From Morchella semilibera (lineage: Eukaryota; Ascomycota; Pezizomycetes; Pezizales; Morchellaceae), in NCBI GenBank assembly GCA_009192285.1, contig CM018603.1, positions 4,957,613 to 5,021,612 on the forward strand: a DNA stretch of 64,000 nucleotides, written 5' to 3'. Below are positions 201-62,887 of this stretch, piece after piece (position 1 is the first letter of the stretch; every line of letters begins with the position of its first letter). The notes under the pieces were generated by a model. The model was not told the DNA's origin and did no database searches. It saw nothing but the letters and a program-made list of their open reading frames with translations. A program made the position numbers and the translations under genes.

Positions 201-823
201 TCACAAACCGGAGCTTCTCTCCAACCCCACCCTCCCCTCCCTCTCGAGCCTCTCCACCTGAGAGAGCTCCACGTCCTTCCGGCCCTTATCGTTTCGGCTC
301 AAGTCCCAGAGCACCTCCTGGCGGAGATACTCAGCGAGCTCCAAGGCGCCTAGGAGCGCCCTTACGGCGGGCGAGATCTCAGCTACGCCGTACATGCACT
401 GGTTGATGAGGTCGTAGCCGTGCAGGGCGAGCCTGTGGCGGGTGGTCCAGACGCTCAGAAGGGTGATGTTGAGCTCGCGCTCATGCTCCCGGTTCCTGCG
501 CCTGTAGCTTGCGATCAAGGCGGCGGTGGAGGCGGCGTGGGCGTTGGCGCTGGGGGGAGCAGCCAGGAGAAGGGGGTCGATTAGGGCGTCGGGGGTGGCA
601 GTGCTGCTGTCCCCAACAGCACCCGCGGTAGCGACGACGCCAGTAAGGGCAGAGCTGGTCGATGCTGGGGTGGGTCAGTGTCAGCGGCGGTGGTACTGGT
701 GCCACGGTTACCTATAGGGTCCTCACCTGCAATGGTCATCGCAACTGGGTCACCAGCATCATCTGGGGTATCTTGGACGGCGGTGGTAGGAGCAATCGTC
801 GCGATGGGGGCAGTGTTCGACAT
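201..823 (-). CDS. small coiled-coil family protein, two exons, 186 aa
   Basis: I do not recognise this gene; it is a member of the window-wide small helical family. The model joins 823-727 and 664-201. The intron (726-665, 62 bp) has a GTGAGG donor and a CCCCAG acceptor, and the phase-1 junction restores one frame of 187 codons with stop. The second exon alone has no ATG before an upstream stop, so the intron is needed to reach the ATG at 823. Residues 1-90 are a low-complexity Ala/Thr/Ser/Pro leader. The rest is charged and helical, with the hinge RHRLALHGYDL near residue 115 and a second helix ending KGRKDVELSQVERLERE. No signal peptide or membrane segment. The nearest relatives by eye are at 2237 and 27336. 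Function unknown. Confidence 0.65.
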
Positions 824-2236
824 GATTTCGGTGTTTGGTTTGAGGTGCGCTTGGTGTGAGAGGTTGGAGGAGGTGGGTTAGGAGGTCCCTTTGGAAGAGG
901 CAATGGACACTCAGCGTGTCGTTCGGGTGCTTTGGGCCTAGAAGCGTTAGTGGATAGAGCAGATCCCGCTCGGGCATGACGTAAACTCCCAAATACCTTT
1001 GGCCATATGGCGGTAACCGTTCCGGTGCCAAAACAAGGTTTCGGGGGAGGAAAAAGGGTTGTACGCATACCCTTGAAGAACAGAGCGGGCCGGCCTGGCA
1101 AGAGTCATCTTATTAGGCGCTGCAATACCACGCAGTATTAGGGTCTGCGGTATGTCGGGAATGCCCTATATCAAATCTATGTTAGCTCTTCGTATATTCT
1201 TCTTGGTGATTCCTCATGATCAGATCTTTACCGGCCGGCGTTCCCAGCTTCTTCTCTCCAGCTCACCCGCCCCCTATCGGTTCCCTTGAGATCCCCAAGC
1301 TTCCCGAGGCGATCCAGAGAGCGGCCAAGGCCAGCTGAGTGGACTTTGCAGGGCTGTGGAATATATATGGCACTGTCATATATATTCCAAGCTACAACCC
1401 CATAATCCGGACTATAGCCGGTGGTCCTGGCACCATATTCCGTAGCCAGTCCCGGCACCTGCCCTGGAGCGACAGAGCGCGGTGGTCTTGCGTAGGCATC
1501 TTGGGCTGCTAGGGGTTCCGGGTATAACCCGTATTATAGGGCGCTAGGTTGGCACCGCTGTGCAGATATCCATATGTAGATATCTGTGATCGCAGCCTGG
1601 CCACGGCGAGCACGGGTTGGGCCTGAGGCGGCGGTTGGTGGAATCAGGGAGATTGGTGTAGTGCGTTCCACCATAGTGGTTTGAGAAGTGGTAAGCTTCG
1701 TAGTGGTGGTTGCGTGTGCTATGTCGTGCGGCTCTTCGGAGGTCTCCGGGCCTGGGCGAGTGTTGCTAGAACTCAACGAATTTGATTCGGATGAAAGATT
1801 AGTCTATATACATGTATGCATGCGACAGGAATAAAGACTCCAAGGTAAATGCTAATTGCCAAATGGTAGTCATCGGCGGTAGAGCAGGAGCATAGGGGTG
1901 TTTGAGGTTCATGCTAGGACATAACACTATATATATATCTTGTAAGATTTGTATTCCTGACGTTGTATATGTAGAGTTTTAATAATCTCTCCAGTGGGAA
2001 GGAATCTCCAGCAGAATATCTCTCCTTCTAAGCACAGACCTGGTGCCTACCCGCCGGAATGGATGGGGGAGAATTGTCTGGTCCTCAGACGTATCTAGGG
2101 ATGGATCTATGGTGCGAGCGCCTAAGGGGGTATAGAGATATTTCTGTTCAAATTTGGTACACAGGATAAGGAAGATATGCGCAATATAAGAGAAGAGTAA
2201 ATCAACGAAGAACGAGAGTCCTTGATTGATAGCAGG
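824..2236. other. intergenic, no gene seen
   Basis: No frame here has coding character that I can support. It contains a perfect inverted repeat at 1358-1388, a short palindrome pair CAGATATC/GATATCTG near 1562-1586, and one TACATGTA site at 1809-1816. Confidence 0.5.
1358..1388. repeat. perfect 12-bp inverted repeat, 7-bp loop
   Basis: GGAATATATATG (1358-1369) is followed after seven bases by its exact reverse complement CATATATATTCC (1377-1388). It could be a hairpin or a remnant of a foldback element; no target-site duplication is evident. Confidence 0.6.
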
Positions 2237-2686
2237 CTAGTATCTAGATACACTAGCCAGCATAAGAGGTACAAGAAAAAGATCCGACGATCTGATTACC
2301 CCTAATCCCATTCTCAACCCCCATCTCCCAAGCGTCCATCTCCCTACGGACCCTTTCCTCCTCCTCACCTGCAACCCCTTCCATCTCCCATCAGCGAGCT
2401 GGATGCTGCGGACTCCGATGCGGACCGTATCCTCATGGACCCTCAACCTGGTCACGGCCCTCTCGATGTTCAGCGGGCAGTCGCAGCCGTCTATCATGCG
2501 GTCGGTGGGATCGTAGCCGGCGAGGATGAGGATGTGGCGAAGGGACCACGCTCTGAAGCGGGCGTCGGCGGTCATGTGTTCGAGGGTTGCGATTTGGCGT
2601 TTAAGGGCTGCGATTTCGGCGGCGGTGTTGCTGGGCGGGGTGTGAGCGGCGGTGACGGTGTGGGAGGAGGGGGGAGTGCTCGCCAT
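2237..2686 (-). CDS. small coiled-coil family protein, 149 aa, C-terminus probably frameshifted
   Basis: The ATG at 2686 follows a purine-rich context and opens MASTPPSSHT, a leader like those of its paralogues. The protein then has a helix, the hinge SLRHILILAGYDP (near residues 48-60) and a second helix to about residue 106. Relatives at 13656, 22737 and 24376 carry WKD-x-x-L-x-x-EEERV at the end of that helix. Here the current frame reads RWKGLQVRRRKGSVGRW, while an alternative frame beginning just downstream reads GEEERVRREMDAWE. A single-base indel near 2370 is therefore likely, and the last 40 residues of the listed frame are probably not ancestral. It may be a young pseudogene or carry a sequence error. 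Function unknown. Confidence 0.55.
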   Translation of the reverse strand: MASTPPSSHTVTAAHTPPSNTAAEIAALKRQIATLEHMTADARFRAWSLRHILILAGYDPTDRMIDGCDCPLNIERAVTRLRVHEDTVRIGVRSIQLADGRWKGLQVRRRKGSVGRWTLGRWGLRMGLGVIRSSDLFLVPLMLASVSRY

Positions 2687-4870: not shown

Positions 4871-5404
4871 CTATCTGGTGTCCCCGGTTCTAGCCATCTG
4901 CTTCTCTTCCTGCATCCACAACTCCAACTGCAATCGACATTGCCACATATCGGAGACCATGAGTCGAAGTTCATAGTCCCGCTGGAAGAGGAGCTTTACA
5001 TTTTCAGTTATTGGAAAGCCAGGATGCATTTCATATGCCTTACAATCGCATCTGGACTCTAAGAAACGTCGTGGATCTTTGAAAAACTCGGCAGTATGCT
5101 TGTAGGTACTGAGGTCACATCCTGCCCCTGCAAGTAGGCGTTGAGTCAGTTGCCATTCGTTCTCAATGTGTTGAAGGTCAGAGGCCCATTCCTCCAGCTC
5201 TACATAGTAACCCGATACGGAGGATTTGAGGCGATCTGTGATCGGAATGAGAGTTTCTGTAACTTTTTCAAGGGATGCACCCACGGGGGTGGCATATATT
5301 GGCTCTAGGTATCTGGTTTATTGTTCGAAGCAGCAGTCGCTAGCAAATCTGGTTTAGTATAGGATAAATGGATCTTTTGTGTCAGTGAGGTACCTTGGGC
5401 TCAT
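4871..5404 (-). CDS. small coiled-coil family protein, two exons, 150 aa
   Basis: Family member of unknown function. The long frame 5312-4871 lacks an ATG start. An ATG at 5404 in ACCATGAGC gives an 11-nt first exon (5404-5394). It joins across an 81-bp intron (5393-5313, GTACCT donor, ACCAG acceptor) in matching phase 2, giving MSPRYLEPIYATPV and then the long frame. The body is charged and helical: ELEEWASDLQHIENEW, the hinge QRLLAGAGCDL (about residues 61-71), a Cys/Asp-rich insertion LESRCDCKAYEM not seen in relatives, then a second helix ending WMQEEKQMAR. The tiny first exon is the weak point; transcripts would decide. Confidence 0.55.
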
Positions 5405-5810: not shown

Positions 5811-6221
5811 TTAGTGCATCACAGCCATACCACCGGCGTCCTGCTCGTACACTCTCATCTTCGTCCCCTGCCTTGACATCCGTGCCCTTTCCATCATCGT
5901 ATTCCCCATTTTCTCCCGCTCCTCCGCAAGTCTTTTCTTCTCGTTGGCGTGGATCTCCTCCATTTGAGCATGGACACCTCTCATGATAGCAAGATCGAGG
6001 GCCATCAGATCTTGATAGTGCTTCACGCCGGTGTAAAGCGCAGCGCGCTCGCACCTCTCGAGATTCGAATCTCCGAAAACGGCCTCGAGGCGGCGGCTTA
6101 GGTGGTCCATCTCAGATTTAGAGCTGAGGTATGTCGTAGTGAGGTCGTTGAGATAATTTTGCAGAATCGAGAGCCTGCCAGTGGCTTGGGCCGCCATGGT
6201 CATAGAGATGGCGGTACGCAT
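5811..6221 (-). CDS. small coiled-coil family protein, 136 aa
   Basis: Single-exon frame from the ATG at 6221; internal ATGs follow at residues 7 and 9 and the third lies in ACCATGG, so the real start could be slightly inside. The protein is almost wholly helical: LSILQNYLNDLTTTYLSSK, then SEMDHLSRRLEAVFGDSN in the position of the hinge, then a long second helix MRGVHAQMEEIHANEKKRL followed by AEEREKMG, which resembles the EEERV end motif of paralogues. The G-Y-D hinge itself is not conserved, so it is a divergent member. No targeting signal. Function unknown. Confidence 0.6.
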   Translation of the reverse strand: MRTAISMTMAAQATGRLSILQNYLNDLTTTYLSSKSEMDHLSRRLEAVFGDSNLERCERAALYTGVKHYQDLMALDLAIMRGVHAQMEEIHANEKKRLAEEREKMGNTMMERARMSRQGTKMRVYEQDAGGMAVMH

Positions 6222-7814: not shown

Positions 7815-8243
7815 TCACTTGGAAAAACTCCTATACAGCTTGTCTCTCTCATGACCCTGATTTCTCAGTAGTGCATCAAACTCGAGCTGATGAGCGGCAT
7901 TCAGAATTGCCACTTGTGATTTCTCCTTCATTCTCTGCTGGTGACAGTCGGGCTGGAGGAGACGCCGGCGGAGCTCGGATACGTTAAGCCTAGCATTTCT
8001 GTACTGTGAGCCCCGAGGGGTGCTGTTGGTACTTTGAGCTGTAAGCAGTATCTTTTGGAAAGCTCTGCATTCGCTGATGAGATTGAGCCGGATATTGCGG
8101 GATATCTCTGGGTGGAGCTGCTCGAAGCGAACCTTCTTGTATACGTAGGGCTGCTCTTGGGGCGTGCGTTGGCGGGACCTGTGGGGGGTGTGTCCCGGCC
8201 CCTGGCTCTCGTGTCCTGCTTGATGGTCATGGCGGCGGGGCAT
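7815..8243 (-). CDS. small coiled-coil family protein, basic N-terminus, 142 aa
   Basis: Single exon from the ATG at 8243, opening MPRRHDHQAGHESQGPG, a His/Arg/Gln-rich leader to about residue 38. The remainder is helical and basic: VRFEQLHPEISRNIRLNLI, ECRAFQKILLTAQ, VSELRRRLLQPDCHQQRMKE and a final helix NAAHQLEFDALLRNQGHERD. The G-Y-D hinge is not visible, so it belongs to the divergent edge of the family. A GATATATATC element (8321-8330) lies about 80 bp upstream of the start and could be the TATA box. No membrane segment or signal peptide. Function unknown. Confidence 0.6.
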   Translation of the reverse strand: MPRRHDHQAGHESQGPGHTPHRSRQRTPQEQPYVYKKVRFEQLHPEISRNIRLNLISECRAFQKILLTAQSTNSTPRGSQYRNARLNVSELRRRLLQPDCHQQRMKEKSQVAILNAAHQLEFDALLRNQGHERDKLYRSFSK

Positions 8244-8320
8244 TCTTTGTCCGTGTTGCGGGCTCTAGAATGAGCCTTGTGGTAGTGGTGGAATCTGAAA
8301 GCAGATATTGTTCTGGCTAG

Positions 8321-9170: not shown

Positions 9171-10476
9171 TCACTGCTCTTCAGAGCCTTTGCACACCCC
9201 ACTGATACGATGTCTTCTGTGGGAAGACTTTCCCGAAAACTTGGAGCCGCACTCACATATCACCCCTTCGCCGTGGATTGTGTCCATATGCACTTTCAAG
9301 CAGCTCGGTCTCGCAAAGACCCCTCCGCAAATCCCGCAGCGGGTATTTCCTTTGGCCCTCCCACCACCATGCCTTCTCTTCACACCGCTCTCTTCAACAC
9401 GTTCCTGAGAGTGACTTGCAAGAATCCCATCTGAGCCACCAATCATCTGCTTCTTGTATGGGCCGCGACTTCCTTTCCCCGCCTTCGGTCTTTTCGCTGG
9501 GCTGTTTGTTGGCGAGGAGGCAGATGATGTCGAAGTGCTGGTGATGGCATCGCCATCCTTCTCCCAATACTTCCAATCTTTTCGATAGTGGGCTTTACGA
9601 GGGTATTTTACACAGTTGGAGAATGAAATAACATCCCCTCCCTCAATCCGATAGCCATCGGAGCTATCCGACTGGGAAACCCCGACGGTAGACCCAAGGC
9701 GAATCTCTGTAACATTAACGTATCGAATGGCAGCCTCGAGCGCAAGGTCCTGCCTCGCCTTCGCCTCGATATAGTCGTCGGTGATGGTAATTGTCTGCGA
9801 GGAAGGAGGATCACATGCCGCGTAGTCGACGAAGTCCATGATGTGTTGCTGAGTGGGGTCGGTTTCCTGAGCAAACTTCGTCATATGCGCCGGGGCATGG
9901 GCAACTAACACGGGGTGCTCAAGAGCTGCAGGGTCGCCAAATGAAGTTGGTGCATCAAACTCATAGCCCCCGAAAATTGTATCAAGCTCGGCCGAAGACT
10001 CAAGGTCCATGATGTCTAAGGGCGTATGACCAGCACCGCCAATTGCAGCCGTTAAGAGACAGGCGAATTCCTCGTCCGTCAGTTCAACAGGTCCACTTGT
10101 TGGTGACGCCTCTAATGAAGAAAAATTATTAGTTGAACTAACAGAGCGTATGGAGGGTGGAAGGAGGAACTGACCAGTTGCTCGTTCTAGTAGGTAGTTC
10201 CCATGGCCGGAGGCTTGTGTAGCAAAGGTACCAGTAAAATTACTTCCACTGTCCTGCAGCAGGGGTAAATTGCCTACAGAGATTGTCAGCAATTTCTCAT
10301 TAGGGACAGGGAGGATATGGGTCAAACCAAGGGTGCCCACTCGGTCTTCATTGTTGCCAGCAACAAGAAGCTTCAGGTCTGAGGACAAAGGTCAGTTACT
10401 CTCCACGTTCAATGATTGAGGCCCAACGTAGAGCACTTCACTCACCAATTGCAGACTCAAAATATGTTGAACCCAT
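9171..10476 (-). CDS. C2H2 zinc-finger protein, three exons, about 391 aa
   Basis: Probable nuclear DNA-binding protein. The model joins 10476-10446, 10378-10175 and 10111-9171. Intron 1 (10445-10379) has GTGAGT and TCCTCAG ends with a phase-1 junction, giving MGSTYFESAID. Intron 2 (10174-10112, 63 bp) has GTCAGT, an ACTAAT branch-like site and CATTAG. It is itself open and in frame, so retention would add 21 residues. The middle is acidic (VELTDEEFACLL, then DLESSAELDTIF), compatible with an activation region. Near the C-terminus lie a basic stretch (KRPKAGKGSRGPYKKQ) and two fingers: CGIC-x12-H-x4-H, and an atypical C-x1-C-x12-H-x5-C finger with Cys as last ligand. The protein ends 7 residues after it. 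The only gene of the left arm with a recognisable role; target genes unknown. Confidence 0.75.
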
Positions 10477-11431: not shown

Positions 11432-11842
11432 TCACTCCCTCAGTCCCGCAACATACTCCACCCCCGGTGGCCTAAGTCCCTTCTTTTCCTTATCCAAGGC
11501 ATCCTCCAACAGAATGATATTCGTCTCAACGATGACTATCATATCCTCAAGTTCCAACATCTTCTTCCTGTTACGTCTGAGCCTATCCTTGACGAAGCTT
11601 CTCCGGATTGCTTCAATAAGCTCCTCATCACCAAGAACAAAGAGGAACCCAATGATGTTGATCTTGAGGGTCTGGATAAACCCACGGCCGCGGTAGAGGT
11701 GGTTGCACAGATTGTCATGCCGGGCCTTGAGCGGTTTGTACTGACGGTGGAGGTATTGGAGGTTCCGCTTCTCGTCGATAATCTGGTCCGCGAGACCAAC
11801 GGGGGGCATCTGGATGTCGTAGGAGCAAATTGAGGAAGGCAT
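11432..11842 (-). CDS. small coiled-coil family protein, 136 aa
   Basis: I chose the ATG at 11842 (context CCACGATGCC), 125 bp downstream of a TATTTAAA box. The frame stays open further upstream, but that part reads as non-coding promoter sequence. Opens MPSSICSYDIQMPPVG. Residues 18-50 form a basic helix (ADQIIDEKRNLQYLHRQYK, then LKARHDNLCNHLYRGRGFIQ). A short hydrophobic stretch IIGFLFVLGDEELIEAI follows at about 60-75; it is too short and too acidic for a clear membrane span. The last third is a coiled coil RNRKKMLELEDMIVIVETNI followed by LLEDALDKEKKG. The G-Y-D hinge is not visible. Function unknown. Confidence 0.65.
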   Translation of the reverse strand: MPSSICSYDIQMPPVGLADQIIDEKRNLQYLHRQYKPLKARHDNLCNHLYRGRGFIQTLKINIIGFLFVLGDEELIEAIRRSFVKDRLRRNRKKMLELEDMIVIVETNIILLEDALDKEKKGLRPPGVEYVAGLRE

Positions 11843-11966
11843 CGTGGCGGCGTTTAGTAAGATCGGGATCTGTGCTGTTCGACAGGGTTTCCACTGAATG
11901 AGGATTGATAACAACGATGATTTAGTGATGATGATGAATGATGAAGGTTGAGGGAATCCGTGTTGG

Positions 11967-11974
11967 TTTAAATA
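11967..11974 (-). promoter_or_regulatory. TATA box of the 11432 gene
   Basis: On the minus strand TATTTAAA, 125 bp before the chosen ATG. Supports the internal start over the longer open frame. Confidence 0.4.
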
Positions 11975-13359
11975 GCGTGCCTGTAGGAGTAGAGGTGTTC
12001 CATTCTCCCCTAATACAGGGTAGGTCAAGGCCCGCCTGAGACACGGGTCGGTATTTTGCTCGCCCCGAGTTGCACTGCATAAAGGCGCCATGATTGATCC
12101 CATTCCTTTGCCGGACAAGTTTATCTCTACTCAAGTACATATTCTAGCCATATCAGGAAATCTTTATCCACAACCAGGAAAGTTTGTATATCCTCCTCGA
12201 TGGATACGACCAATCGATATTAGAAGTGAGATACCTATCAGGGGCTTCAGTTAGTGAGGTGAGCTTCTAAGATTCTGTCTACTCATGCTTCCGGGTGAAG
12301 TAACATTGCTATTCATCTCAGTTTGACACACCACACTTGTAGATCATCGATAACTGAACCGACAATGGTCCTACCCTGCCATCCTATTTAAACCATGTTC
12401 AACTGCTATCGGTACACCAAGACTTCTCCCCCTATCCCTCCTCCCCGGGCGGTACCGGTGGCATGGAGATACTCAACCTTGGGAGAGCTCGCTTGAGTTG
12501 CGTGGCTTGGGGGAGTGACACAGCGGGGCGTGGCCGGCATGAGGTCCCACTGCCGTGGTTAGGGTTAGTCCTGGTATATATGGTGTTCGTACTTTGTATG
12601 AGGGGTTCCTCCTGCCTGCAAGACGGGGGTGGGCCGGAGGAGGGCCCGGCAGGTTTCTTCTAGTTTTCAACGCCCAGGCGAGAGATATCGGTCTTCGTGG
12701 GCTCAAAGGAGCCATAAACAGTTTTGATTCCAATATATATGATTACATCTACGGGTACGTTCCCACAGCCCAGTTCAAAGCACCCCACCAGAAAGTATTG
12801 TCAGCTAGGTTGTAGAAATAACTACACACCTAACGAGAACCTAGACTACACAAGTTCGTATATTCTAACAACTATAATGGATATGGGGGTTCGTCCATTC
12901 CCATAACATTAGAAAACTATAATCTTTTTTTTTCACCCATAATCTGAAAATCTTGGTTTAAGATCCTATCATATGAGGATGAAACTTTGTGCCATAGGGC
13001 TTCCCTACACGCAACATTCTTGTACCTAGAAAAGAACGAAAGTATGATAAAAAAAAATGAAAACGAAAATGAAACCTTTGGTTGCTACGCGGTGCGCAGC
13101 TACTCTTGTAACCTGGTAATAGAATATTACCCCAATCATAGCGAATTCGAAGATACTAGGGACTTGGTGGTTTATCTACCGTGACGAGCCCCTGGCAGCT
13201 AATTATAACTCGTCTACTCACTCCGCTAAAATTCAAATGCTGCTTACTGATTATTTTACTACCAAATCATCTTAATTGGGCTTGACCGGCATTTTAATTC
13301 TGGCACTATGAGGAGAAATATAGGGACACTACTGCTGTGTTTCCAAGCGCCCTGTATAC
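11975..13359. other. intergenic, no gene seen
   Basis: Low coding character. Poly-T and poly-A runs near 12925 and 13048. Frames up to 86 codons are chance. Confidence 0.45.
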
Positions 13360-13655: not shown

Positions 13656-14003
13656 ATGTCCTCCACACCCGCAATAACCTGGACACCAGACCAGACCTCC
13701 GCCCGCGTCGCCGCCCAAATCGCCAGTATCAAGCGAGACCTTGCAGCCCTCTACAGGGGCGAAGAGTGGGCCCGCTTCAAGTTCCTGCTGGACACCGTCG
13801 CGGGGAGGGACCATTACCGAAGGGAGTGGGTAGACCGGCGCGAGGACTATGTCGTTCAAATGAAGCGGCTGGAGCGGAGGTGGAAGGATAAGCAGCTGGC
13901 CGAGGACGAGAGGGTGGAGAAGGCGATCGAGAGGTTGGAGAGTAGGGCGGAGAGGGAGGAGGGGGGGTGGGGGGGGAAGAGGAGGAAGGTCGCGGAGGAG
14001 TAG
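13656..14003 (+). CDS. small coiled-coil family protein with WTPD motif, 115 aa
   Basis: Single exon from the ATG at 13656 in CCACAATGTC. It is a clear paralogue of the 24376 gene: ITWTPDQTSARVAAQIASIK here matches AAWTPDAHSARVAATIQRIK there. The body is a charged helix (DHYRREWVDRREDYVVQMKR) followed by the family end motif RRWKDKQLAEDERVEKAIER. The C-terminus KRRKVAEE follows a Gly-rich linker; KRRKV resembles a nuclear localisation signal. Stop at 14001-14003 is followed by a 10-base G run. No membrane segment. Function unknown; nuclear location is inference only. Confidence 0.7.
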   Translation: MSSTPAITWTPDQTSARVAAQIASIKRDLAALYRGEEWARFKFLLDTVAGRDHYRREWVDRREDYVVQMKRLERRWKDKQLAEDERVEKAIERLESRAEREEGGWGGKRRKVAEE

Positions 14004-20500: not shown

Positions 20501-20975
20501 ATGCAGGTTACTGCTGGCCGCCCGCGCGTGATGGATCCTGCGGAGCGGCGCGCGCTGGATGCCGAGCTGCGTGTCTGGTATTCTGTTGCTGCTGCCGGCA
20601 GCGTTGTCACTGAGAGGGCGCTTGAGAGGAAGGTATTTGCCTTGGTTGGTGGTAGGTTCTCTTTCCTGTTTGCACTGTCGTGAGAGGGGCTAATTGTGTG
20701 GACAGGGAGGGTGTTGCCGCGTGGCTGGTTGGCGAGGTGGAAGAGGAGGCATGGCGTTAGTGCTCCACACGGGCCGCAGGGGTCTCTACCGGTATGTTGC
20801 TCTGTGGTGGCGGAGCTAGAGGCTGTGACTGACAATGTACGTGAATGCATAGGAGGATCCAATCTCCATCTCCGACTCCGACGACACCGACACCGACTTC
20901 GACGACACCGACGACGAAAGCGCCGAAGGTACACAAGCCGCCGCACCTCCCCGCCGTGGAGGCGCTCACCGCTAA
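17516..20975 (+). CDS. large disordered protein with C-terminal CENP-B/Tc5-type HTH and acidic tail, 1114 aa
   Basis: Likely a nuclear DNA-binding protein. The model joins 17516-20651, 20706-20791 and 20853-20975. The start CACCATGGC is strong. Intron 1 (54 bp) has a GTAGGT donor and intron 2 (61 bp) a GTATGT donor; phases match. Residues 1-40 are Arg/Pro-rich. A conserved-looking helical block lies at about 45-150 (ALNAWWAYTHSGAILPSS). Roughly 150-1015 is disordered, rich in Glu, Ala, Pro and basic patches. Across intron 1 the splice creates SVVTERALERKVFALVGG, then RVLPRGWLARWKRRHGVS (about 1028-1064), which fits the second half of the Tc5/CENP-B HTH (VSxxLLxxKA...WLxRFKRRHG). No DDE nuclease domain is seen, so it is not an intact transposase. 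The last exon is an acidic tail beginning EDPISISDSDD, compatible with a SUMO-interacting motif. GC-rich relative to its flanks. Confidence 0.7.
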
Positions 20976-22489: not shown

Positions 22490-22736
22490 GGGGCCCGACT
22501 GCCACCGCGAGCCGTGGGGGTTCACGACCTAGTCTACCAGCAGCAAAGGAGAAACACAACTACAGTGGACCTACTCCCACTAAATGGTACCATAGCTATT
22601 CAAGCCTGTGCAAAACAGCATAAACACTCTGACGCACTGTAGAAGTAACCCAAGGCACAGAGCAAGTTTCAATTCTCTACGGATGCTACCCAACAGCCGA
22701 AAGCCCTCCAGCCAGCAGCAGCACCAATCCAGCCCC

Positions 22737-23132
22737 TCAACCCCCAGCCCACCAGAACGGGTGCAGCCCCCCCATGTCACTTCCGCCCCCCTCCCGACGT
22801 AGGCCCCCTCCCCCGTCCTCCATCCACTGCCTCCTCCTCTTCCTCCTCCTCTCGATCCTCACATCCTCGGCAGCCCTCTCCTCCTCCATCTTCAGCACCC
22901 GGTCCTTCCACTCGTACTCCAGCTCGTGCATGTTCCGCAATAGTATCTGCATGTTCCTGCGACACTGGTATATGTGGCTTTCCCACCACTGTAGAGAGTG
23001 GAGGCCCGTGGCGGGGGCGTTGGCGGGGTGCCGCTTCACATCAGTGTATCTCATGTACTTGACGAGATACGCGTATTGCTCCTTGTGGTAGGAGTCGGTG
23101 AGCTGTTGGATGTGTTCTTTGTAGGTGCTCAT
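22737..23132 (-). CDS. small coiled-coil family protein, duplicate A, 131 aa
   Basis: Start at the ATG 23132, matching the position of the duplicate's ATG (both follow a CGAACCYCAAMCCCAAA leader). Opens MSTYKEHIQQLTDSYHKEQ, lacking the WTPD block and first helix found in the 24376 copy; about 22 codons are missing just after the start. Next comes YAYLVKYMRYTDVKRHPANA and ATGLHSLQWWESHIYQCRRN, then the end motif YEWKDRVLKMEEERAAEDVR, an Arg-rich run RIERRRKRRRQ (possible NLS) and a Gly-rich tail GLHPFWWAGG. The promoter keeps a TATAAGTA element at 23310-23303. Function unknown. Confidence 0.65.
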   Translation of the reverse strand: MSTYKEHIQQLTDSYHKEQYAYLVKYMRYTDVKRHPANAPATGLHSLQWWESHIYQCRRNMQILLRNMHELEYEWKDRVLKMEEERAAEDVRIERRRKRRRQWMEDGGGGLRREGGGSDMGGLHPFWWAGG

Positions 23133-23302
23133 GTTTGGGTTTGAGGTTCGATGTAAGGTCGTTAAATTATTTGTGGTTGTTAGGTCTAGGTGAGCCCGGG
23201 CCACTGGATGGGTGTTGGAGGGCTGGGCTCAGCGGGGGTCGCGGGGTGGGCTGGGCTGCTACGGTATCCAGAAATCCAGTTCTTTCAGTCATTGCCCTGG
23301 GT

Positions 23303-23310
23303 ACTTATAC
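23303..23310 (-). promoter_or_regulatory. TATA box of duplicate A
   Basis: TATAAGTACCC on the minus strand, about 171 bp before the ATG. The same place in unit B reads CTAAGTACCC, so the element is damaged there. Confidence 0.4.
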
Positions 23311-23535
23311 ACCACCGGCGCGTCGCGCGTCTCCGGGCGGGCGGACCTCACGGGCAGGGATTCAGCTCAACAAACAACGGCGCCATTACTAGTGGGAGTC
23401 CGTGGTCCATCGCTTGTCCTCCCGCCGTACGGGGTGTGTTCTTGGAGCTTCTGGTCTAGCGGACACCGTATGCCGCATTCCGTCCGGCCCCCATCTACCT
23501 ACAGCCACGGCCTTCCACGTCTCACGTCTAAGTCA

Positions 23536-24164: not shown

Positions 24165-25225
24165 GCGGACCATGGGCGCCCACGACCCAGTCTAACAGCA
24201 AATGAGAAATACAACTACAGAAGACGTAGTCCTACCAAATTACAACATTCAAGCCCAGGTCTGTGAAAACTGCAATACTCTGACGAAACCTTGGAGTAAC
24301 CCAGAAATGCAGAGGAATCTACGATTATCTACGGAGTCTACCCAACAGCCGCAGGCTCCACAGCCAGCAGAGGCACTAATCCGCCCCCTCCCCCTCAACC
24401 CCCACTAGCACGGCCCCCCCATTCCCCGCCCTCCTCTTCCCGGCCCTCTCCCCCGCCCCCTTCTCCCTCTCCCGCTCCCTCTTCCTCCCCGCCCTCTCGA
24501 TCCTCCCCACGGCCCTGGCAACCCTTTCCTCCTCCATCAGTGCCCGGTCCTTCCACTTGCGTTCCAGCACGGCCATGTCATGCACCAGCTGCTGCATTCT
24601 AGTGTGGGACTGGAGTACGTAGTCCCCCCACCACTCCAGCGAACGGAAGCCCGTGGTGGGCGCGTAAGTGAGGTGCTGCTTCACCTCACTGTATCTGGTG
24701 TGCTTGACGACGTATGCCCATTGCTCCTTGTGGTAGGACTCGGTGAGCTGGCGGATGCGTGCTTTGATCCTCTGGATGGTCGCGGCGACGCGGGCGCTGT
24801 GCGCGTCCGGCGTCCAGGCTGCGGCGGCGGCGGTATTCATGATTTGGGTTGGGGTTCGATGTAAATTTGTTATGTTGCTCTTGAGTGTTAGTTGTAGTTG
24901 GGGCCGGGCCACTGGTGCGTGTTGGAAGGCTGCGTTTAGCGGGGTTGCAGAGTTTGGTGGGGTGCGGCTCCTTCGGTGTCCAGAAATCCTGTTTTTTCAA
25001 TCATTGCCCCGGGTACTTAGGCACCACCACACATCACACGTCTCCAGACAGGCAGACCTTGCAAACAAACAGCGACGCCATCACTACTAGATATCCGTGG
25101 GCCATCGCCTGTCCTCCCGCTATACGGGGTGTGTTCTTGAAGCTTCCGATCCAAGGACCACCGCACGCCGCGTTCCGCCCCCATCTACCTAGAGCCACGG
25201 TCTTCTACGTCCCACGTCCATTCTT
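24165..25225 (-). repeat. tandem segmental duplication, unit B
   Basis: Partner of 22490-23535 in the same orientation, offset about 1.67 kb. In the upstream block unit A has CGGCGCGTCGCGCGTCTCC where unit B has CACACATCACACGTCTCC, a run of CpG-to-CpA changes. This is the pattern left by deamination of methylated cytosine. Confidence 0.75.
24376..24840 (-). CDS. small coiled-coil family protein, duplicate B, WTPD motif, 154 aa
   Basis: Start at the ATG 24840 (CAAATCATGAATACC). Opens MNTAAAAAWTPDAHSARVAA, so the N-terminal helix shared with the 13656 gene is intact here though lost in duplicate A. Then RIRQLTESYHKEQWAYVVKH, EVKQHLTYAPTTGFRSLEWW and a second helix MQQLVHDMAVLERKWKDRAL followed by MEEERVARAVGRIER. 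The tail is Lys/Arg/Glu-rich (RKREREREKGAGERAGKRR), possibly a nuclear signal, ending in a Gly/Val stretch. No membrane segment. Its promoter has lost the TATA box seen in duplicate A. Function unknown. Confidence 0.7.
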   Translation of the reverse strand: MNTAAAAAWTPDAHSARVAATIQRIKARIRQLTESYHKEQWAYVVKHTRYSEVKQHLTYAPTTGFRSLEWWGDYVLQSHTRMQQLVHDMAVLERKWKDRALMEEERVARAVGRIERAGRKREREREKGAGERAGKRRAGNGGAVLVGVEGEGAD

Positions 25226-27335: not shown

Positions 27336-27644
27336 ATGAACAACAATGCCACAGGGGGCGATATCCTGAAGGCCCGGATTTCCATCCGTAACCAAAGGTA
27401 CGACAGTTACCTATTCAAAGTTTGGGCGATACGCCACAACCTTGCGTGCCACGGTTACGATCTCAAAGCAAATACACCGCTGCAAGATGGGGCAAGTCAA
27501 TCGGTGTGCCCCGAAATTGGACGTCTCCTAGACTTACACAGCCATCTTCAGAAGCAGATGCGCCGTGACCTGCAAATGATGCAGATGCTCCGGGGGGTGC
27601 TTAAAGATTTGGAGGCTAGGATGGAGGAGAGGAATATGGTGTAG
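27336..27644 (+). CDS. small coiled-coil family protein, G-Y-D hinge, 102 aa
   Basis: I chose the ATG at 27336 (CAAACATGAAC). The frame is open back to 27138, but that part is C/A-rich leader. Opens MNNNATGGDILKARISIRNQ and has almost no low-complexity leader, so it shows the family core most plainly. Helix 1 is RYDSYLFKVWAIRHNLACHG with hinge AIRHNLACHGYDL (residues about 38-50). A 20-residue linker follows, then helix 2 PEIGRLLDLHSHLQKQMRRD and a short end KDLEARMEERNMV. Closest in the window to the 201 and 28488 genes. Function unknown. Confidence 0.7.
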   Translation: MNNNATGGDILKARISIRNQRYDSYLFKVWAIRHNLACHGYDLKANTPLQDGASQSVCPEIGRLLDLHSHLQKQMRRDLQMMQMLRGVLKDLEARMEERNMV

Positions 27645-28487: not shown

Positions 28488-28919
28488 ATGTCTCTTCCAT
28501 GCATGTTCCACCAAAGCCCTTCCTCTCTCGCGATGAGCGCGGCCGCAGCGCTACGCATCCAGGAGGCAGTCCTCGAAATGCACCAAACAACTCAGGAGCT
28601 CCACAGACTCAACATGTGCATGTGGAGCATGCGCATCCGGCTGCAACGTGAAGGCCTCGATCTCGCTACAGGGGCCTTCCCACCGGAAATGGACGTGGGG
28701 GATATGCAGGAAACAGGCATTGAAATCCTCCGTTTGGTGGAGAAGGATGTTAGGCATTGTACTTTGTTGCTGCGCGGGATGCATTTGAGGTGGAGAGGCA
28801 TGCAGAAGTGGGAGGAGACCAGGGTCCAGTCCGAGAGGCAGAGCTTCGACAGATTCGAGCGCCAGAGACAGATTCAGGATGAGAAGCGCAAGATTCAGCA
28901 GCTGTATCGCCTCAACTGA
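28488..28919 (+). CDS. small coiled-coil family protein, 143 aa
   Basis: Start taken at the ATG 28488 (ACTCATGTCT, MSLPCMFHQSPSS); the ATG at 28533 (MSAAAALRIQ) is an alternative. No ATG lies further upstream in frame. Helix 1 is RIQEAVLEMHQTTQELHRLN, the hinge SMRIRLQREGLDLATGAFP at about residues 48-66, then helix 2 ETGIEILRLVEKDVRHCTLL and the end motif LRWRGMQKWEETRVQSERQS. The last 20 residues RFERQRQIQDEKRKIQQLYR extend the coil. Direct neighbour and relative of the 27336 gene. Function unknown. Confidence 0.7.
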   Translation: MSLPCMFHQSPSSLAMSAAAALRIQEAVLEMHQTTQELHRLNMCMWSMRIRLQREGLDLATGAFPPEMDVGDMQETGIEILRLVEKDVRHCTLLLRGMHLRWRGMQKWEETRVQSERQSFDRFERQRQIQDEKRKIQQLYRLN

Positions 28920-31125: not shown

Positions 31126-31556
31126 ATGAGCACCCCGCCCCCGCCCCGCGCCCCGCCCCCGCCTCCACCGGCTTCCTCGCCGAAGCCTTCGCCCACATCA
31201 CGCTCTCCGGCTACGGCCACCACCTCCCCGACATCCGCTACCACCTGACGGACCTGCGCGAGATGCAAGACGCATACGAGCAGCGCGTCTCGGCGCTGTT
31301 CATGCTGCGCGCGGAGCTGCAGCACTACGGCTTCAACTTCGCCACCGAGTCCTTCCCGAAGGGGTGTGTCGTCACGCGCGACATGGACGACCTGCTGCTC
31401 TCAATGTTGCAGCTGCGCCAGCGCATGAAGATGAATATCGCGTACATGCAGTATGTCGATAGGTACTACAAGAAGCTCCTGGTGGTGCTGTTGGAGACGC
31501 CGGGGGACTGGGGGGAGGAGCAGCCGACGGATGGTGAGGGGTGTGTCGTTGCGTAA
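31126..31556 (+). CDS. small coiled-coil family protein, apparent frameshift near the start
   Basis: The protein body is in the frame of the ATG at 31263. Codons with clear family character extend upstream in that frame to about 31129 (STGFLAEAFAHITLSGYGHH, then DIRYHLTDLREMQDAYEQR). The only plausible start, ATG AGC ACC at 31126, is in another frame. The two are separated by a C/G homopolymer-rich tract with no GT dinucleotide, so no intron can start there. A one-base indel is the simplest reading, either a real mutation or a sequence error. If intact, the product would be about 143 aa; from 31263 it is 97 aa. The hinge is MLRAELQHYGFNF and helix 2 is DMDDLLLSMLQLRQRMKMNI. Nearest relative is the 33032 gene. 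Confidence 0.55.
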
Positions 31557-33031: not shown

Positions 33032-33484
33032 ATGTCCACCAGCGCCTCCACACGCGCCTACAGCGCGACCGGCGCCTCCACCCCCCTCGACCCACTCGCG
33101 CAAGCCAACCGAAACATGCGCCTCTACCAGATCAGCGAGCAGAAGCACCTCATCGACGAGATGTGGCAGATCTACGAGCACGGCCAAGCAAAGCTTATGG
33201 TTCTCCGGGCCAAGCTCGGCCGGATGGGATTCAACCTCCTTACCAATAAGTTCGTTGCGGGGAACCGTGTCCGCCCGGGCCCGATCAGGATGTATAGGGT
33301 CATGCATCAGCTCAAGTGGGAGCTGCACTGGTATGAGAGGGATATCCAGGAGCACGTAGTGCGCTGGAAGGATACGAGGTTGGCTTTTGAGGAGGAGGAT
33401 TTGGCGACCGCGATGAACCCGCTGGCGAGGAGGATGAAGTTGGTGGCTTTGGGAGATATTGAGGAGGAGGAGGAGGAGGCGTAG
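33032..33484 (+). CDS. small coiled-coil family protein, 150 aa
   Basis: Single exon from the ATG at 33032 (CCCATGTCC). Opens MSTSASTRAYSATGASTPLD, the Ser/Thr/Ala leader typical of the family. Helix 1 is EQKHLIDEMWQIYEHGQAKL, the hinge VLRAKLGRMGFNLLTNKFV (about residues 64-82), helix 2 MYRVMHQLKWELHWYERDIQ, and the end motif VRWKDTRLAFEEEDLATAMN, followed by a Glu run at the C-terminus. It aligns with the 31126 gene over helix 1 and the hinge. Very GC-rich codons against AT-rich flanks. No targeting signal. Function unknown. Confidence 0.75.
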   Translation: MSTSASTRAYSATGASTPLDPLAQANRNMRLYQISEQKHLIDEMWQIYEHGQAKLMVLRAKLGRMGFNLLTNKFVAGNRVRPGPIRMYRVMHQLKWELHWYERDIQEHVVRWKDTRLAFEEEDLATAMNPLARRMKLVALGDIEEEEEEA

Positions 33485-39713: not shown

Positions 39714-40274
39714 ATGTGGCGTCCAGACCCTAATCTGTCTCAACGCGCGGACTTCAGGCTCAGCTACCCTACTTCACCGGAATCCTCTCCTACACCGGCA
39801 AACTACCATAGTGCTCCCCGCGAGACGCCTCCCCCCTCTTCACCTCTTCCTCTCCCCTATAAGGACTATAGGTGCCGTATCTTTGCGCCATGGGGTGTCA
39901 ACCTCCCATGGCGTGTGGAGGAACTAATTGTGGAGCTTGAAACGCTCTTCAAGCTCCGTGCCACAGCGGTCGAGGATATTAAGGTCTACAACGAAACATG
40001 CACGGTTACTGATACTCCCGTCGTCGCCGATGACCTAAAGTTGTTCGAGGATCTCAAGGAGAATCTTGAGGAGGAACTCTCGAAGGCGCAGGAAGAGTTG
40101 AGGTACACCAGGGGACAACATTACTGGGTCGGCGAAAATCGAAAGAGGTTGATGCAGCAGGTGGCAAAGAAAAGGAAGTACGAGGATTACGAGGCGGAAG
40201 AGAAGGGGGAGGGGAAGGCAGAGGAGAAGGAGAAGGAAGACGGGGGAGCAGAGAAGAAGGTGAAGGTTGCTTGA
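39714..40274 (+). CDS. coiled-coil protein with Lys/Glu-rich tail, 186 aa
   Basis: Start at the ATG 39714 (TTCATGTGG); no ATG lies further upstream in frame. Residues 1-60 are a Pro/Ser/Thr leader (SPESSPTPANYHSAPRETPP). A helical core follows: RVEELIVELETLFKLRATAV, then DIKVYNETCTVTDTPVVADD and the heptad run LKLFEDLKENLEEELSKAQE. The last 50 residues are basic then mixed-charge (LMQQVAKKRKYEDYEAEEKG, ending EKKVKVA), with two candidate nuclear signals (KKRK and KKVKV). The same leader-helix-linker-helix order as the small family, but the G-Y-D hinge is absent. Function unknown. Confidence 0.7.
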   Translation: MWRPDPNLSQRADFRLSYPTSPESSPTPANYHSAPRETPPPSSPLPLPYKDYRCRIFAPWGVNLPWRVEELIVELETLFKLRATAVEDIKVYNETCTVTDTPVVADDLKLFEDLKENLEEELSKAQEELRYTRGQHYWVGENRKRLMQQVAKKRKYEDYEAEEKGEGKAEEKEKEDGGAEKKVKVA

Positions 40275-41977: not shown

Positions 41978-42578
41978 ATGTCTACCCCTATTCAGGACCT
42001 TTCCACCGATGCCGGCGACGCCACTAAACCTCGCAATGGGCCAACTACAGGCGGTAGCTCCAGCGCTAGGCCTTCTACCACCGGCGCCGGTTCAAGCACA
42101 GATACCAGTACACAGACCAGTGCTGGGCCTCGTACTACTACTACTCAATCCTTCGTGGAAGATCTCAAGAAAGAAATTTCTTTCCATGGCTTTACGCCAA
42201 ACACCGTAAGATTCCACTATACTTCACCTCCGTCCAATCATTTTTCATACTCACCCATACTAGGAAAGAACCTTCACGAGAACAGGGTCTTCAACTGCCG
42301 CCGACGTGAAGGAGGCCACCACTCTCCTTGAATATCTACAGTTGAATGAGGAATTCAACACCAACGCCTACGAGAGCGAGAGCGACGAGTTTATGGAAAT
42401 TGACCAAGATCAATTAGCCGGGTTCGATTCCGGTGGGCCCTCCGGCACCACTTTCGTAGAGGAGAGCACCGAGCCCCCTATGTCCCCCGACCAGCGCCGC
42501 CGCCATCTTCGCCGCCAGCAATTAAAGGGATTTGGGTGTAGGTTGCCCGCCATCCCCGAGCAGGAGCAGGAAAAGTAG
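41978..42578 (+). CDS. small coiled-coil family protein, two exons, 180 aa
   Basis: Exons 41978-42205 and 42264-42578; the 58-bp intron has GTAAGA and ACTAG ends and a phase-0 junction. The ATG at 41978 (CCAATGTCTACC) gives MSTPIQDLSTDAGDATK and a long Ser/Thr/Gly leader. The first exon ends in FVEDLKKEISFHGFTPNT, which matches the family hinge (L-x-x-E-I-x-x-x-G-F), so the intron falls just after the hinge. Exon 2 has a short helix ADVKEATTLLEYLQLNEEFN, an acidic stretch ESESDEFMEIDQDQ and a basic RRRHLRRQQ near the C-terminus. Helix 2 is much reduced. Function unknown. Confidence 0.7.
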
Positions 42579-44921: not shown

Positions 44922-45263
44922 ATGCTCGACGATTTCGTTACCGTCCAGAGGAGGTACAACAATCTCCGTGCCAAATGGGTCGCGCTCAACTCCACCTACA
45001 AACGCCTCAAGTTCGAGTACAATGCCCTCTTCAATCCGTATCCTGCCAGCTCCGTCGACGATCCTGCATCTATGCGTTCCCTCGAACACCTAGCCCTTCT
45101 TTTGGAACGCCGTGCCTCTCGCGCCAAGGAGCTACTAGACATGGTCACCGTTGCTGCTAATGGAGTCAACGATATCTACGAACAGTGCGAGGCCCTCTGG
45201 CCGGTCGTGGAGGCGGCACGGAAGCTATGTGCGGAACTGCAGGAGACTGTCCAGAATGCTTAA
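44922..45263 (+). CDS. small coiled-coil family protein, start codon possibly lost, 113 aa from first ATG
   Basis: The first in-frame ATG is at 44922 (MLDDFVTVQRRYNNLRAKW). Eight codons upstream, GTG TCT ACC GCT at 44898 sits exactly where paralogues have ATG TCT ACC (MST...). The ancestral start may have changed to GTG, shifting initiation inward. The protein is helical throughout: QRRYNNLRAKWVALNSTYKR, LKFEYNALFNPYPASSVDDP at the hinge position, then MRSLEHLALLLERRASRAKE and VNDIYEQCEALWPVVEAARK. No leader remains. Codons are GC-rich against AT-rich flanks. Function unknown. Confidence 0.65.
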   Translation: MLDDFVTVQRRYNNLRAKWVALNSTYKRLKFEYNALFNPYPASSVDDPASMRSLEHLALLLERRASRAKELLDMVTVAANGVNDIYEQCEALWPVVEAARKLCAELQETVQNA

Positions 45264-46031: not shown

Positions 46032-46379
46032 ATGCCAGCAGCCGTCGAAGTCATGCGGAACAAGCTCGATACCGCCCTCCTCCTTTGCCAGCCTTCAATG
46101 TGTCTCTGGACCGCTCTGAACAACCTCCGCATTAAATTGACTCTCGAACTTGAGGGGGGAGCGATTGCCACCAATGCTAGACAGCCTCTTATCAACAGAA
46201 TTAGGGCCATCACCAAGGCCCGTGATAGGGAGTGGGAGCACGTTGCGCTCCTCTACAAAGAGGTGCAGAAGGCAAAATGTGCCCTGGAGGCTATGGAGAA
46301 GATGGAGGGGCAGGTCGGCGGAGGCGGGGCAGGGGGGAATAGCGAAGGGGTTGGGCCAAAGGGGGTGGTCCAGAAGTAG
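46032..46379 (+). CDS. small coiled-coil family protein, 115 aa
   Basis: Single exon from the ATG at 46032 (GCGACAATGCC). Opens MPAAVEVMRNKLDTALLLCQ. Helix 1 runs through CLWTALNNLRIKLTLELEGG, where LRIKLTLELEGG occupies the hinge position without the Y-D. Helix 2 is NRIRAITKARDREWEHVALL then KEVQKAKCALEAMEKMEGQ. The C-terminus is a Gly-rich tail. Nearest by layout to the 44922 gene 770 bp upstream. No targeting signal. Function unknown. Confidence 0.7.
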   Translation: MPAAVEVMRNKLDTALLLCQPSMCLWTALNNLRIKLTLELEGGAIATNARQPLINRIRAITKARDREWEHVALLYKEVQKAKCALEAMEKMEGQVGGGGAGGNSEGVGPKGVVQK

Positions 46380-61008: not shown

Positions 61009-61368
61009 ATGTCTTTCTCAAGCACCGCATCTGCCATCCCCACCTACACCATTCAGGCCGCCTGCAACGCCCTCCGCTCCGAGCTCACCGCGCTGATCAG
61101 CACCTACGCTAGCATGATCATTAAGCTGGACGAGCTTTCTGAAGACCTCATTGCCTGCGTCGCGGGGGAGGATTTCTATGCCAATCTCATGTTAAATGGT
61201 GGGTTCAGGGATGAAATGGATCCAGCAGTACTTCTGGTTTGGACAGAAGGTGAAGGTGAATCTGATGTGAAGGCCAAGATCGATGCCCAGTTTGAAGAGC
61301 TGAGGAAATTGGAAATGATTATTATCAAGAAGATGGAGGAGGTTGAAAATATGGAGAAGGACCTTTAG
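61009..61368 (+). CDS. small coiled-coil family protein, 119 aa
   Basis: Start at the ATG 61009 (TTTCCATGTCTTTC), downstream of a TATATAAA box. The frame is open earlier, but that part is leader. Opens MSFSSTASAIPTYTIQAACN. Helix 1 is LRSELTALISTYASMIIKLD. A variable acidic middle with GGFRDEMDPAVLLVWTEGEG follows, then helix 2 KIDAQFEELRKLEMIIIKKM ending EEVENMEKDL. It is the clear paralogue of the 62480 gene: both have IQAA/LQAA, an EL-x-A-[LM]-ISTY segment and a [KI]-x-EEV-x-x-ME end. The G-Y-D hinge is absent, so these two form a subgroup. Function unknown. Confidence 0.75.
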   Translation: MSFSSTASAIPTYTIQAACNALRSELTALISTYASMIIKLDELSEDLIACVAGEDFYANLMLNGGFRDEMDPAVLLVWTEGEGESDVKAKIDAQFEELRKLEMIIIKKMEEVENMEKDL

Positions 61369-62479
61369 GTATGCGGTTTGGTTGGGAAATCGGGAAAGCG
61401 GGATGATAGTTTGTGATCAGGTTGCCTTTGAGGAAACTATTAGAGATTGAAGAGTGGTCTGATTAAGAATAAATGCTTTAACTATGTCCTTCGTATTATT
61501 AGTGACACTTAGATTTTGTGCAAATTATGAAAATTGATATTTAACTGTGATAGTGTCCCCCCTCCGGGTTATTAGGGGGTCTACTTAGTCCGCAATCTAC
61601 CCCGGTATCTTCAAGATCACCCTAGAGACGGCCCTGGATCCGCTGGATATGCCGGGGAGACAGTGGATGAATATAAAGTTTACAGATGCATCACAAGGTT
61701 TACTCACTACCCTAGATCTATTCTCACTGCGTGCCACCTGCGGGGAAGGTGGTCGGATCCTGTTCACACAGCAATCCATAGCATAGCTAATCATTATATA
61801 AGAATGTGTACTCTGTTGCCCTGCCCTGAACCTGCAGCCAAGTACTTTTTGCGGGCGGGGGCTCGCTGGGCGGGGATGAGGAGTGACGAGTACTTGCCAA
61901 ATGCCCAACTCCAGGACAGAAACCCGACAAACACTTACAGCTGCCACCACCTTTGGCGGTGTTTTCATCCCAAATATTAAAACGCGGAAGTATATTCATG
62001 TGATTGGTTCTTAAACGTCTAAGATGTCTTGTTCCATAACCTGTTCCGATGATTACCATGCGGGAACTAACTGGCCCTTCGGCCATTTATTCAACTCCAT
62101 CAGAGATCCGGGGCTAGGTGATTATGATTCATTCTGTAACTGCAGAGGCAGCCCCCGGCCCGTCTCAACCCAGAGCCGGGGACCCCCGCCCTCCTGGTCC
62201 TAATGTAGTAAAGGGTGCAAGGTAGATTTATTCTTGCTAGTACCCTCTGGACAAAGGGCTTCGTCCACCAACTTGAAATACAACCACCCTACGCAGATAA
62301 TCTCTTTCTACGCGGTTAAGTTTTTCAAGATGAAACCTTGATAATAAACCAGGAATATAAATGTTTTGCAGCCCTCCCCAGAATTTACTCCTGTATCCCA
62401 CACCACAACCTCAATAATAGGTTCGTCTTCCTCCCAACCCGCAACTTTCTACTCTTAAGTGCAATCGAAATTTTTCAGC
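61369..62479. other. intergenic between two paralogues
   Basis: No gene seen. A GC-rich inverted pair CCCCGGC/GCCGGGG lies near 62150-62182. Confidence 0.45.
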
Positions 62480-62887
62480 ATGTCGACCCCAGCCTCTGAA
62501 AGCAACCCCGCCACAGGCATCCCTCACCCCACCCTCCAAGCAGCCTATATTATAATCGGCAACGAGCTAGTAGCTATGATATCAACCTACGAGGAGACCT
62601 TCGACAGGCTCGGTGCCCTCGCCGAACAGGCAACGCTCGCCAAGCTCGAGGCCCTCGCCGAACAGATCCAGGGCTGTGCTGCAGCCGATCTAGGCGAAAG
62701 ATGTGCCCACCTGAGGCGTATCCGACCGGACGGCAGGCTACCTAGGCTCTTCCAGTCTCTGTACGAGCTCGAGAAGAAAATAGACATTAAAATTGAGGAG
62801 GTTAAGTGCATGGAAACTCTTCTGATAGAGTCGGGGGAGTTGTGTTTGAGTAGAAGTACCGCGGCCTATATTGGCTCGGGAATGTGA
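62480..62887 (+). CDS. small coiled-coil family protein, 135 aa
   Basis: Start at the ATG 62480 (TTCAGCATGTCGACC). Opens MSTPASESNPATGIPHPTLQ. Helix 1 is GNELVAMISTYEETFDRLGA. A short internal duplication follows, LGALAEQ then LEALAEQ twelve residues later. Next come DLGERCAHLRRIRPDGRLPR and helix 2 LYELEKKIDIKIEEVKCMET. The tail SRSTAAYIGSGM has no counterpart in the 61009 gene. Tandem paralogue of that gene in the same orientation, 1.1 kb downstream. Function unknown. Confidence 0.75.
   Translation: MSTPASESNPATGIPHPTLQAAYIIIGNELVAMISTYEETFDRLGALAEQATLAKLEALAEQIQGCAAADLGERCAHLRRIRPDGRLPRLFQSLYELEKKIDIKIEEVKCMETLLIESGELCLSRSTAAYIGSGM

Follow-up and report, generated by a model that had tools for sequence, protein, structure and literature searches.

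A cluster of small orphan genes of one family, predicted to encode helical hairpins, in Morchella semilibera

Are the many small frames crowded into one stretch of the Morchella semilibera genome genes of a single family, how did they arise, and what might their proteins do? The stretch (GenBank assembly GCA_009192285.1, contig CM018603.1, positions 4,957,613 to 5,021,612 of the forward strand; the window hereafter means all 64,000 nucleotides of it) holds nineteen listed genes, which a first-pass annotation had described as a dispersed cluster of about eighteen small, fast-evolving helical proteins. A cluster of small genes, most of them lacking introns, occupies the locus; they encode one orphan family, locally duplicated and diverged almost beyond recognition. 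That there is one family, that it is clustered and that it grew by tandem birth is held here with high confidence.

Profile seeds were nine listed open reading frames (ORFs), picked after 20 ORFs, namely 36064 and all 19 on the list, had been compared in pairs and had yielded just a few linked groups. All six frames of the window and of 100 kb on either side were searched first. This returned 15 ORFs at E<1e-3 and 18 once iterated, and the best reversed-frame match in the last round of that 18-ORF search had an E of 0.38. The search was extended by 20 kb from C1:4.545-4.565 Mb (C1 being the contig of the window), with inclusion at E<0.01 and 284 kb read overall; reading was confined to this C1 region. 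The iterated profile settled at 27 members, nine in the window, 14 in its flanks and four near C1:4.55 Mb, while at E<0.01 not one reversed frame matched. A hidden Markov model built from nine of the listed proteins, a kind of search that the first-pass annotation had proposed as a check, holds together on iteration across 284 kb with a clean reversed control. The cluster extends past the window on either side and is larger than had been described. Its proposed membership stands in part: nine of the 19 listed genes, all of them seeds, match the iterated profile and form one family, and the other ten do not match it significantly. Divergence is extreme, with a median pairwise identity of 15% for 22 members. 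The consensus consists of an N-terminal helix, a turn LR..L...GYD and a second helix with frequent WKD. The window members are as follows (aa, amino acids).

201..823, minus strand: family member of two exons, 186 aa; exons 823-727 and 664-201, intron 726-665 (62 nt, GTGAGG...CCCCAG); profile E 2.5e-17
2237..2686, minus strand: family member, 149 aa; profile E 1e-16, leader percentile 0.993
13656..14003, plus strand: family member, 115 aa, close to 24376 and 22737; profile E 1.1e-8
22737..23132, minus strand: family member, 131 aa, duplicate of 24376; profile E 2.9e-19
24376..24840, minus strand: family member, 154 aa; profile E 3e-19
27336..27644, plus strand: family member, 102 aa; profile E 2e-18
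28488..28919, plus strand: family member, 143 aa (or 128 aa from ATG 28533); profile E 2e-17
31126..31556, plus strand: family member with an out-of-frame start; domain-frame profile E 4.1e-20
33032..33484, plus strand: family member, 150 aa; profile E 2.5e-18

The frames of these nine look genuine when judged from the DNA. Length is weak evidence for genes, since an order-2 Markov null itself yields about 20 ORFs of at least 100 aa; the window holds 45 such ATG-initiated ORFs against 19.5 ± 4.4 expected. The proportion of synonymous differences exceeded that of non-synonymous differences (pS>pN) in 13 of 13 pairs of stop-to-stop frames; the pairs were chosen by hand, 61009/62480 among them, and several were saturated and some differed by a slight margin. 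A codon score was trained on non-family ORFs, namely an exon of HSP90 plus six ORFs of the flanks, three of which lack a Pfam match, so the ranks of these six are biased. It placed 16 of 20 scored members, and 7 of the 8 other listed ORFs that were scored, in the top 45 of 195; the members ranked lower were 2237 (48th), 27336 (78th, scored from an upstream Met) and those at +133091 and +158047 (flank positions carry a sign). Leaders of 30 members and look-alikes were A/C-rich, with 10% G. With starts chosen by eye and members lacking an assignable ATG left out, the leave-one-out leader score reached at least the 93rd percentile of 6000 random ATGs in 14 of 18 members, and the 80th-90th in the other four. 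Member 201 scored at the 0.999 percentile (taken one base off its ATG). Its frame has no ATG ahead of the domain, and a canonical, frame-keeping intron of 62 nt links ATG 823 to the domain; the median intron given for M. crassipes in an excerpt of PMC7014384 is 63 bp.

Three other upstream features were considered. A TATA box showed no clear enrichment: 12.6% of random 200-mers have one, and it was present in 6 of 30 leaders and in 3 of 18 members. Conserved introns in the 5' leader were rejected as a family feature (a single leader of 30, where random 300-mers give 9.1%), and enriched upstream 7-mers were rejected as a signal, as they mirror the A/C-rich composition. A candidate 5'-leader intron of 33032 ends 37 nt upstream of the ATG.

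An over-reading of chance open frames would fit the non-significant length of many ORFs, the low codon score of 7815 and the missing family signal of 5811 and 11432. For the nine window members it is refuted by profile E values between 1e-8 and 1e-20 alongside a clean control of reversed frames, by pS>pN, by the leaders and by the intron at 201, and as an account of the cluster it is scarcely credible. Unrelated chance frames, one of the outcomes by which the first-pass annotation would have been overturned, are accordingly excluded for these nine, though not for each listed ORF. Its description of small charged proteins free of strongly hydrophobic stretches was borne out: among 29 ORFs the highest 19-residue Kyte-Doolittle mean was 1.59, and within the first 40 residues, where the signal peptide of a secreted small effector would lie, it was 1.19 (a measure of hydropathy, not a signal-peptide prediction).

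The distribution of the family was examined in 56,756,124 bases on 23 contigs, of which C1 makes up 7,341,407. Eight family proteins were used as single-sequence queries. They gave 16 non-self matches at E<1, seven of them at E<=0.01, corresponding to 12 distinct genes that all lie at C1 4.55-5.12 Mb, an interval of ~1% of the genome. Member 27336, for instance, matches 201 and the member at -3246. One of the eight queries had no non-self match at E<1. At E 1-10, two further matches were found on C1 and three elsewhere (C12, C13 and C23; E 5-8). Single-sequence searches are insensitive at such divergence, and distant clusters elsewhere could escape them. The stretch at 4.55 Mb holds four profile members and four look-alikes picked by eye within ~17 kb, all on the minus strand, and is separated from the window region by ~290 kb outside the read sequence.

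This distribution bears on a possible origin from a transposon, with the family as the remains of a gag-like coiled coil or as a domesticated element. What we take, from their motifs, to be Gypsy-like elements and other repeats are interspersed with the array. Of the species-specific genes in M. sextelata, many are gag-like (PMC13208314). Set against such an origin, all 16 protein matches fall in one chromosome region and are not dispersed through the genome, the 22.5/24.2-kb pair is the only DNA duplicate over a member among the window self-matches listed, and none of the weak Pfam matches in 18 members is to a gag family. This origin is disfavoured and considered highly improbable. One DNA probe, placed over ORF 5811 (not a proven member), was single-copy in the genome.

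Local duplication is seen directly at one place in the window.

22501-23528 and 24159-25218: segmental duplication comprising genes and ~400 bp upstream; blastn identity 71% and 74%

The two copies carry 22737 and 24376, which are 54% identical across 87 aa, and 13656 also matches 24376 (BLASTP E 1.5e-12). The earlier statement that neighbours are the most alike was confirmed for 22 members. The farther apart two of them lie, the less similar they are (Mantel r=-0.40, p=5e-5), and the best match is one of the two nearest neighbours in seven cases against 2.1 expected. Such a decay is what tandem birth would be expected to leave. Members do lie on both strands, as had been said, yet orientation comes in blocks (runs p=0.011), and the last 14 of the 22, starting at 27 kb and going rightwards, are all on the plus strand. 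At 31126 a C-rich tract separates the best start (ATG 31126, leader percentile 1.000) from the domain, and the two lie in different frames; this may mark a dying or broken copy, an assembly slip or a missed upstream exon. The member at +156918 is fragment-like. One member, of 306 aa in total with its long C-terminal extension, has no Pfam match (L015:426-1409, +94426 to +95409). A repeat of ~430 bp is interspersed through the cluster, at window 22018-22431 and, with 76-82% identity, near +80.8, +121.4 and +128.0 kb; it is possibly a small non-autonomous element.

The evolutionary half of the proposed birth, divergence and death of genes is thus supported by the orphan family, the 1-kb duplicate, the decay with distance and the out-of-frame 31126; the conflict role attached to it is an inference. 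It could be that the region is a nursery of young and dying genes, most copies being near-neutral by-products of local duplication and few being functional. Several observations agree with this: the closest pair has diverged about equally in coding sequence and upstream flank, 31126 and the fragment at +156918 look like failing copies, and the chance background alone supplies ~20 ORFs of at least 100 aa. The pS excess in all 13 pairs and the turn and hydrophobic pattern conserved at ~15% identity suggest instead long-term selection on the protein, and a nursery of this kind is judged unlikely.

The fold was modelled with AlphaFold for two of the 27 members. For 28488, helices were placed at residues 3-39 and 57-127 with a mean predicted local distance difference test score (pLDDT) of 92.1, and for 24376 at residues 13-55 and 65-136 with a mean pLDDT of 80.0. 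In these predictions helix 1 has about 40 residues and ends near the conserved LRxxL...GYD turn, and helix 2 is longer. It is very probable that each member is a two-helix hairpin, as predicted for these two. A Foldseek search of PDB with the models gave 0 of 460 matches at E<=0.001.

Searches for relatives support the earlier view that the family has no name: none was found in Pfam, in PDB or among 5.8 billion proteins. Against Pfam-A, 18 members gave a best E of 0.0039 and 15 weak families, each in one member only (cut-offs were given for the first of the 18 alone); one of the 18 matched Prefoldin (PF02996) at a non-significant E of 0.15, and HET, NACHT and NB-ARC domains were matched neither in the 18 members nor in the scanned window ORFs. 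The family profile searched against PDB sequences gave a best E of 0.098, to unrelated coiled coils. No homologue was found among the 5.8 billion proteins with an 18-sequence alignment (1185 candidates, E<=1) or with 24376 alone (159 candidates, E<=10). Each of these searches used at most 100 words, leaving few words per sequence for the alignment and testing a single member with 24376, so orthologues in the black morels, ~34 million years away according to an excerpt of PMC7014384, could have escaped. The last step of gene prediction in M. crassipes was a screen with PFAM (PMC7014384, section 4.3, as excerpted). A family without a Pfam match would be dropped by that step and be absent from such a gene set; Pfam screening is in this respect a blind spot. 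Linkage to the mating-type locus MAT was rejected, the only MAT-alpha-like match being on C22 (E 0.003, below cut-off). Among the open-licence literature matches listed, by title and start of abstract, no paper describes this cluster.

What the proteins do can be proposed from their pattern of change. The hairpins would act inside the cell as recognition proteins with partner-specific coiled coils, the core and turn being conserved and the surface changing freely, while birth and death of genes would renew both their number and their sequences. Partner-specific recognition fits a hydrophobic pattern and a turn that are conserved while other positions are free, and it fits local birth, confinement to a single region and orphan status. 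Among recognition settings the likeliest would be conflict or self/non-self recognition, either vegetative incompatibility or defence against mycoviruses or transposons. A recognition or conflict role is put forward tentatively, as a possibility well below even odds; the whole explanation, in which family, hairpins and recognition role are taken together, comes nearer to an even chance without reaching it. A bolder version, in which dozens of hairpins with partner-specific coiled coils form a morel-specific recognition complex on one chromosome, replacing HET and NLR proteins and hidden by Pfam filtering, is distinctly unlikely.

Several results weigh against a recognition role. The first-pass annotation would have counted a high ratio of non-synonymous to synonymous divergence (w, dN/dS) as support; this was not borne out, the least diverged pair giving w=0.82 (95% confidence interval, CI, 0.53-1.33) and six pairs with dS up to 1.1 giving w of ~0.5-0.97, none shown to exceed 1. 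In favour of the explanation as a whole, dN in the closest pair (0.38 over the whole protein, 0.29 for the helical core) does not fall below the 0.26 by which the upstream flanks differ. The proteins, as far as their sequences tell, change about as fast as the surrounding DNA, which is fast, and positive selection is not demonstrated. The hairpin fold is a generic one, with no PDB match at the threshold used. HET and NACHT are the usual partners in ascomycete incompatibility, and neither was found among 30 window and flank ORFs compared with Pfam. The mapped M. importuna candidates mimpvic32 and mimpvic33 are large proteins and not small hairpins (PMC8940278, in excerpt).

Some of these results favour ordinary intracellular coiled-coil adaptors or developmental proteins (e.g. 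of fruiting body or stress), spread in a duplication-prone region under relaxed constraint and without any conflict role. A w of 0.82 with a CI including 1, a generic fold and the lack of HET or NACHT among the 30 scanned ORFs would all be expected of them. In Neurospora, lineage-specific genes respond to cues from development and the environment, and knockouts suggest that few of them are essential (PMC10684091, in excerpt). The retention of members across 570 kb, with a turn and hydrophobic pattern preserved at 15% identity, would seem to exceed simple relaxation, and adaptors of this kind are considered rather unlikely. Meiotic drive, by spore-killer-like or other selfish coiled-coil poisons or antidotes spreading by duplication, shares with the family a single region, fast turnover and orphan status; no membrane span was seen in the hydropathy of 29 ORFs and no poison/antidote pairing was visible, and drive is rated improbable. 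The conflict role is ranked first, at the tentative level given above, with ordinary adaptors next and the near-neutral nursery third.

The other ten listed ORFs appear mostly gene-like from codon and leader scores. They are given below with composition-shuffle p values, which are uncorrected for the 19 ORFs tested.

61009..61368, plus strand: small protein, pair partner of 62480; codon rank 30/195, shuffle p 0.18
62480..62887, plus strand: small protein, pair partner of 61009; codon rank 42/195, shuffle p 0.16
4871..5284, minus strand: weak candidate member, no in-frame ATG; shuffle p 0.010, 0.005, 0.013, profile E 5.0
44922..45263, plus strand: weak candidate member; shuffle p 0.013, 0.042, 0.029
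39714..40274, plus strand: gene-like ORF, doubtful candidate member; codon rank 5/195, shuffle p 0.146, 0.027, 0.035
5811..6221, minus strand: gene-like small ORF without family signal; codon rank 15/195, leader percentile 0.996, shuffle p 0.70
46032..46379, plus strand: gene-like small ORF without firm family signal; codon rank 16/195, leader percentile 0.989
41978..42578, plus strand: two-exon gene, 180 aa; intron 42206-42263 (58 nt, frame-keeping)
7815..8243, minus strand: listed ORF, coding status doubtful; codon rank 61/195, leader percentile 0.936, shuffle p 0.066
11432..12118, minus strand: listed ORF, doubtful; Pfam HR1 E 4.9e-4 (20.4 bits, below the cut-off of 33.1), shuffle p 0.47

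Proteins 61009 and 62480 match each other (phmmer 2e-7) and form a separate related pair outside the profile family as detected; a genome search with 61009 returned 61009 itself and a weak match to 62480 only. The reversed sequence of 39714 scores as well as the forward one (p 0.012), and three shuffle runs with 46032 gave p values of 0.15, 0.03 and 0.08. The exon 1 frame of 41978 does not match the family profile. The right flank has further small helical look-alikes of this sort (w104959, w108990, w114249 and w116910), and it is suspected that the listed singletons may be family members beyond detection.

Beside the listed genes, which the first-pass annotation had taken to make up most of the coding content, other ORFs share the region. 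A 405-aa ORF at window 9171-10388 (minus strand) has one weak C2H2 finger (E 9.5e-4, below the Pfam cut-off) and, by eye, a second CxCG..F........H....C-like motif; flank ORFs at ~-45989 and ~-31238 end similarly, and divergent zinc-finger orphans may also be clustered here. A single-exon ORF of 1055 aa at window 17516-20683 (plus strand) has the highest summed codon score of the 195 and a fungal-type leader, and gave no match in Pfam. Inside the cluster region, at ~+83.7 to +90.3 kb (L013-L014), are two related ORFs with ankyrin repeats by Pfam, one of which has what we take to be an F-box-like N-terminus. A second small group of related orphan ORFs lies at ~-41905, -37914, -37625 and -24527, two of them with a Cys-rich C-terminus. 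Presumed retrotransposon frames, named like the Gypsy-like elements from their motifs, are interspersed with the array in the flanks at -90 to -66 kb and +70 to +76 kb (mutually related), and the frame L043:1-1125 is reverse-transcriptase-like. Outside C1, the genome searches gave the same chance match at C12:396172 and C13:396208, with identical scores and stops, and the scores of L029 and L030 agree frame by frame; C12 and C13 may share a long near-identical stretch.

Morel cultivation and breeding are hampered by vegetative incompatibility, and few of the genes behind it are known. The M. importuna homologues of het genes known from elsewhere are invariant between compatibility groups, and further genes are expected by the authors (PMC8940278, in excerpt); this leaves room for new recognition genes in morels. 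The dense, fast-turning cluster offers a concrete, mappable candidate for self/non-self recognition. Should the family be real and have no conflict role, it would still illustrate well how an orphan family evolves by birth and death, a single genome here holding duplicates that differ widely in age.

Generic antiparallel helical hairpins, such as the ESCRT-III/Snf7, Vipp1, prefoldin and ING dimerisation domains, are among the closest known comparisons for the predicted fold. Among morel genes, mimpvic32 and mimpvic33 are alike in having been proposed for vegetative incompatibility, mimpvic33 without a known domain, and differ in size and structure, with 773 and 1311-1324 aa and 8 and 2 introns according to the excerpted text of PMC8940278, against ~100-190 aa and mostly no introns in the cluster described here. 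The het and allorecognition loci of ascomycetes share fast evolution and possible intracellular recognition; the M. semilibera proteins, unlike HET and NLR proteins, are small with two predicted helices, and HET, NACHT and repeat domains were not matched in them. Of the analogues found, the nearest are the lineage-specific genes of Neurospora crassa (PMC10684091, in excerpt), which are likewise clustered orphans with few or no known domains and a proposed bearing on self-recognition and reproduction. Those genes adjoin telomeres and cluster with HET-domain genes, whereas here, with no HET in 30 ORFs, one homologous helical family occupies 4.55-5.12 Mb of a 7.34-Mb scaffold.

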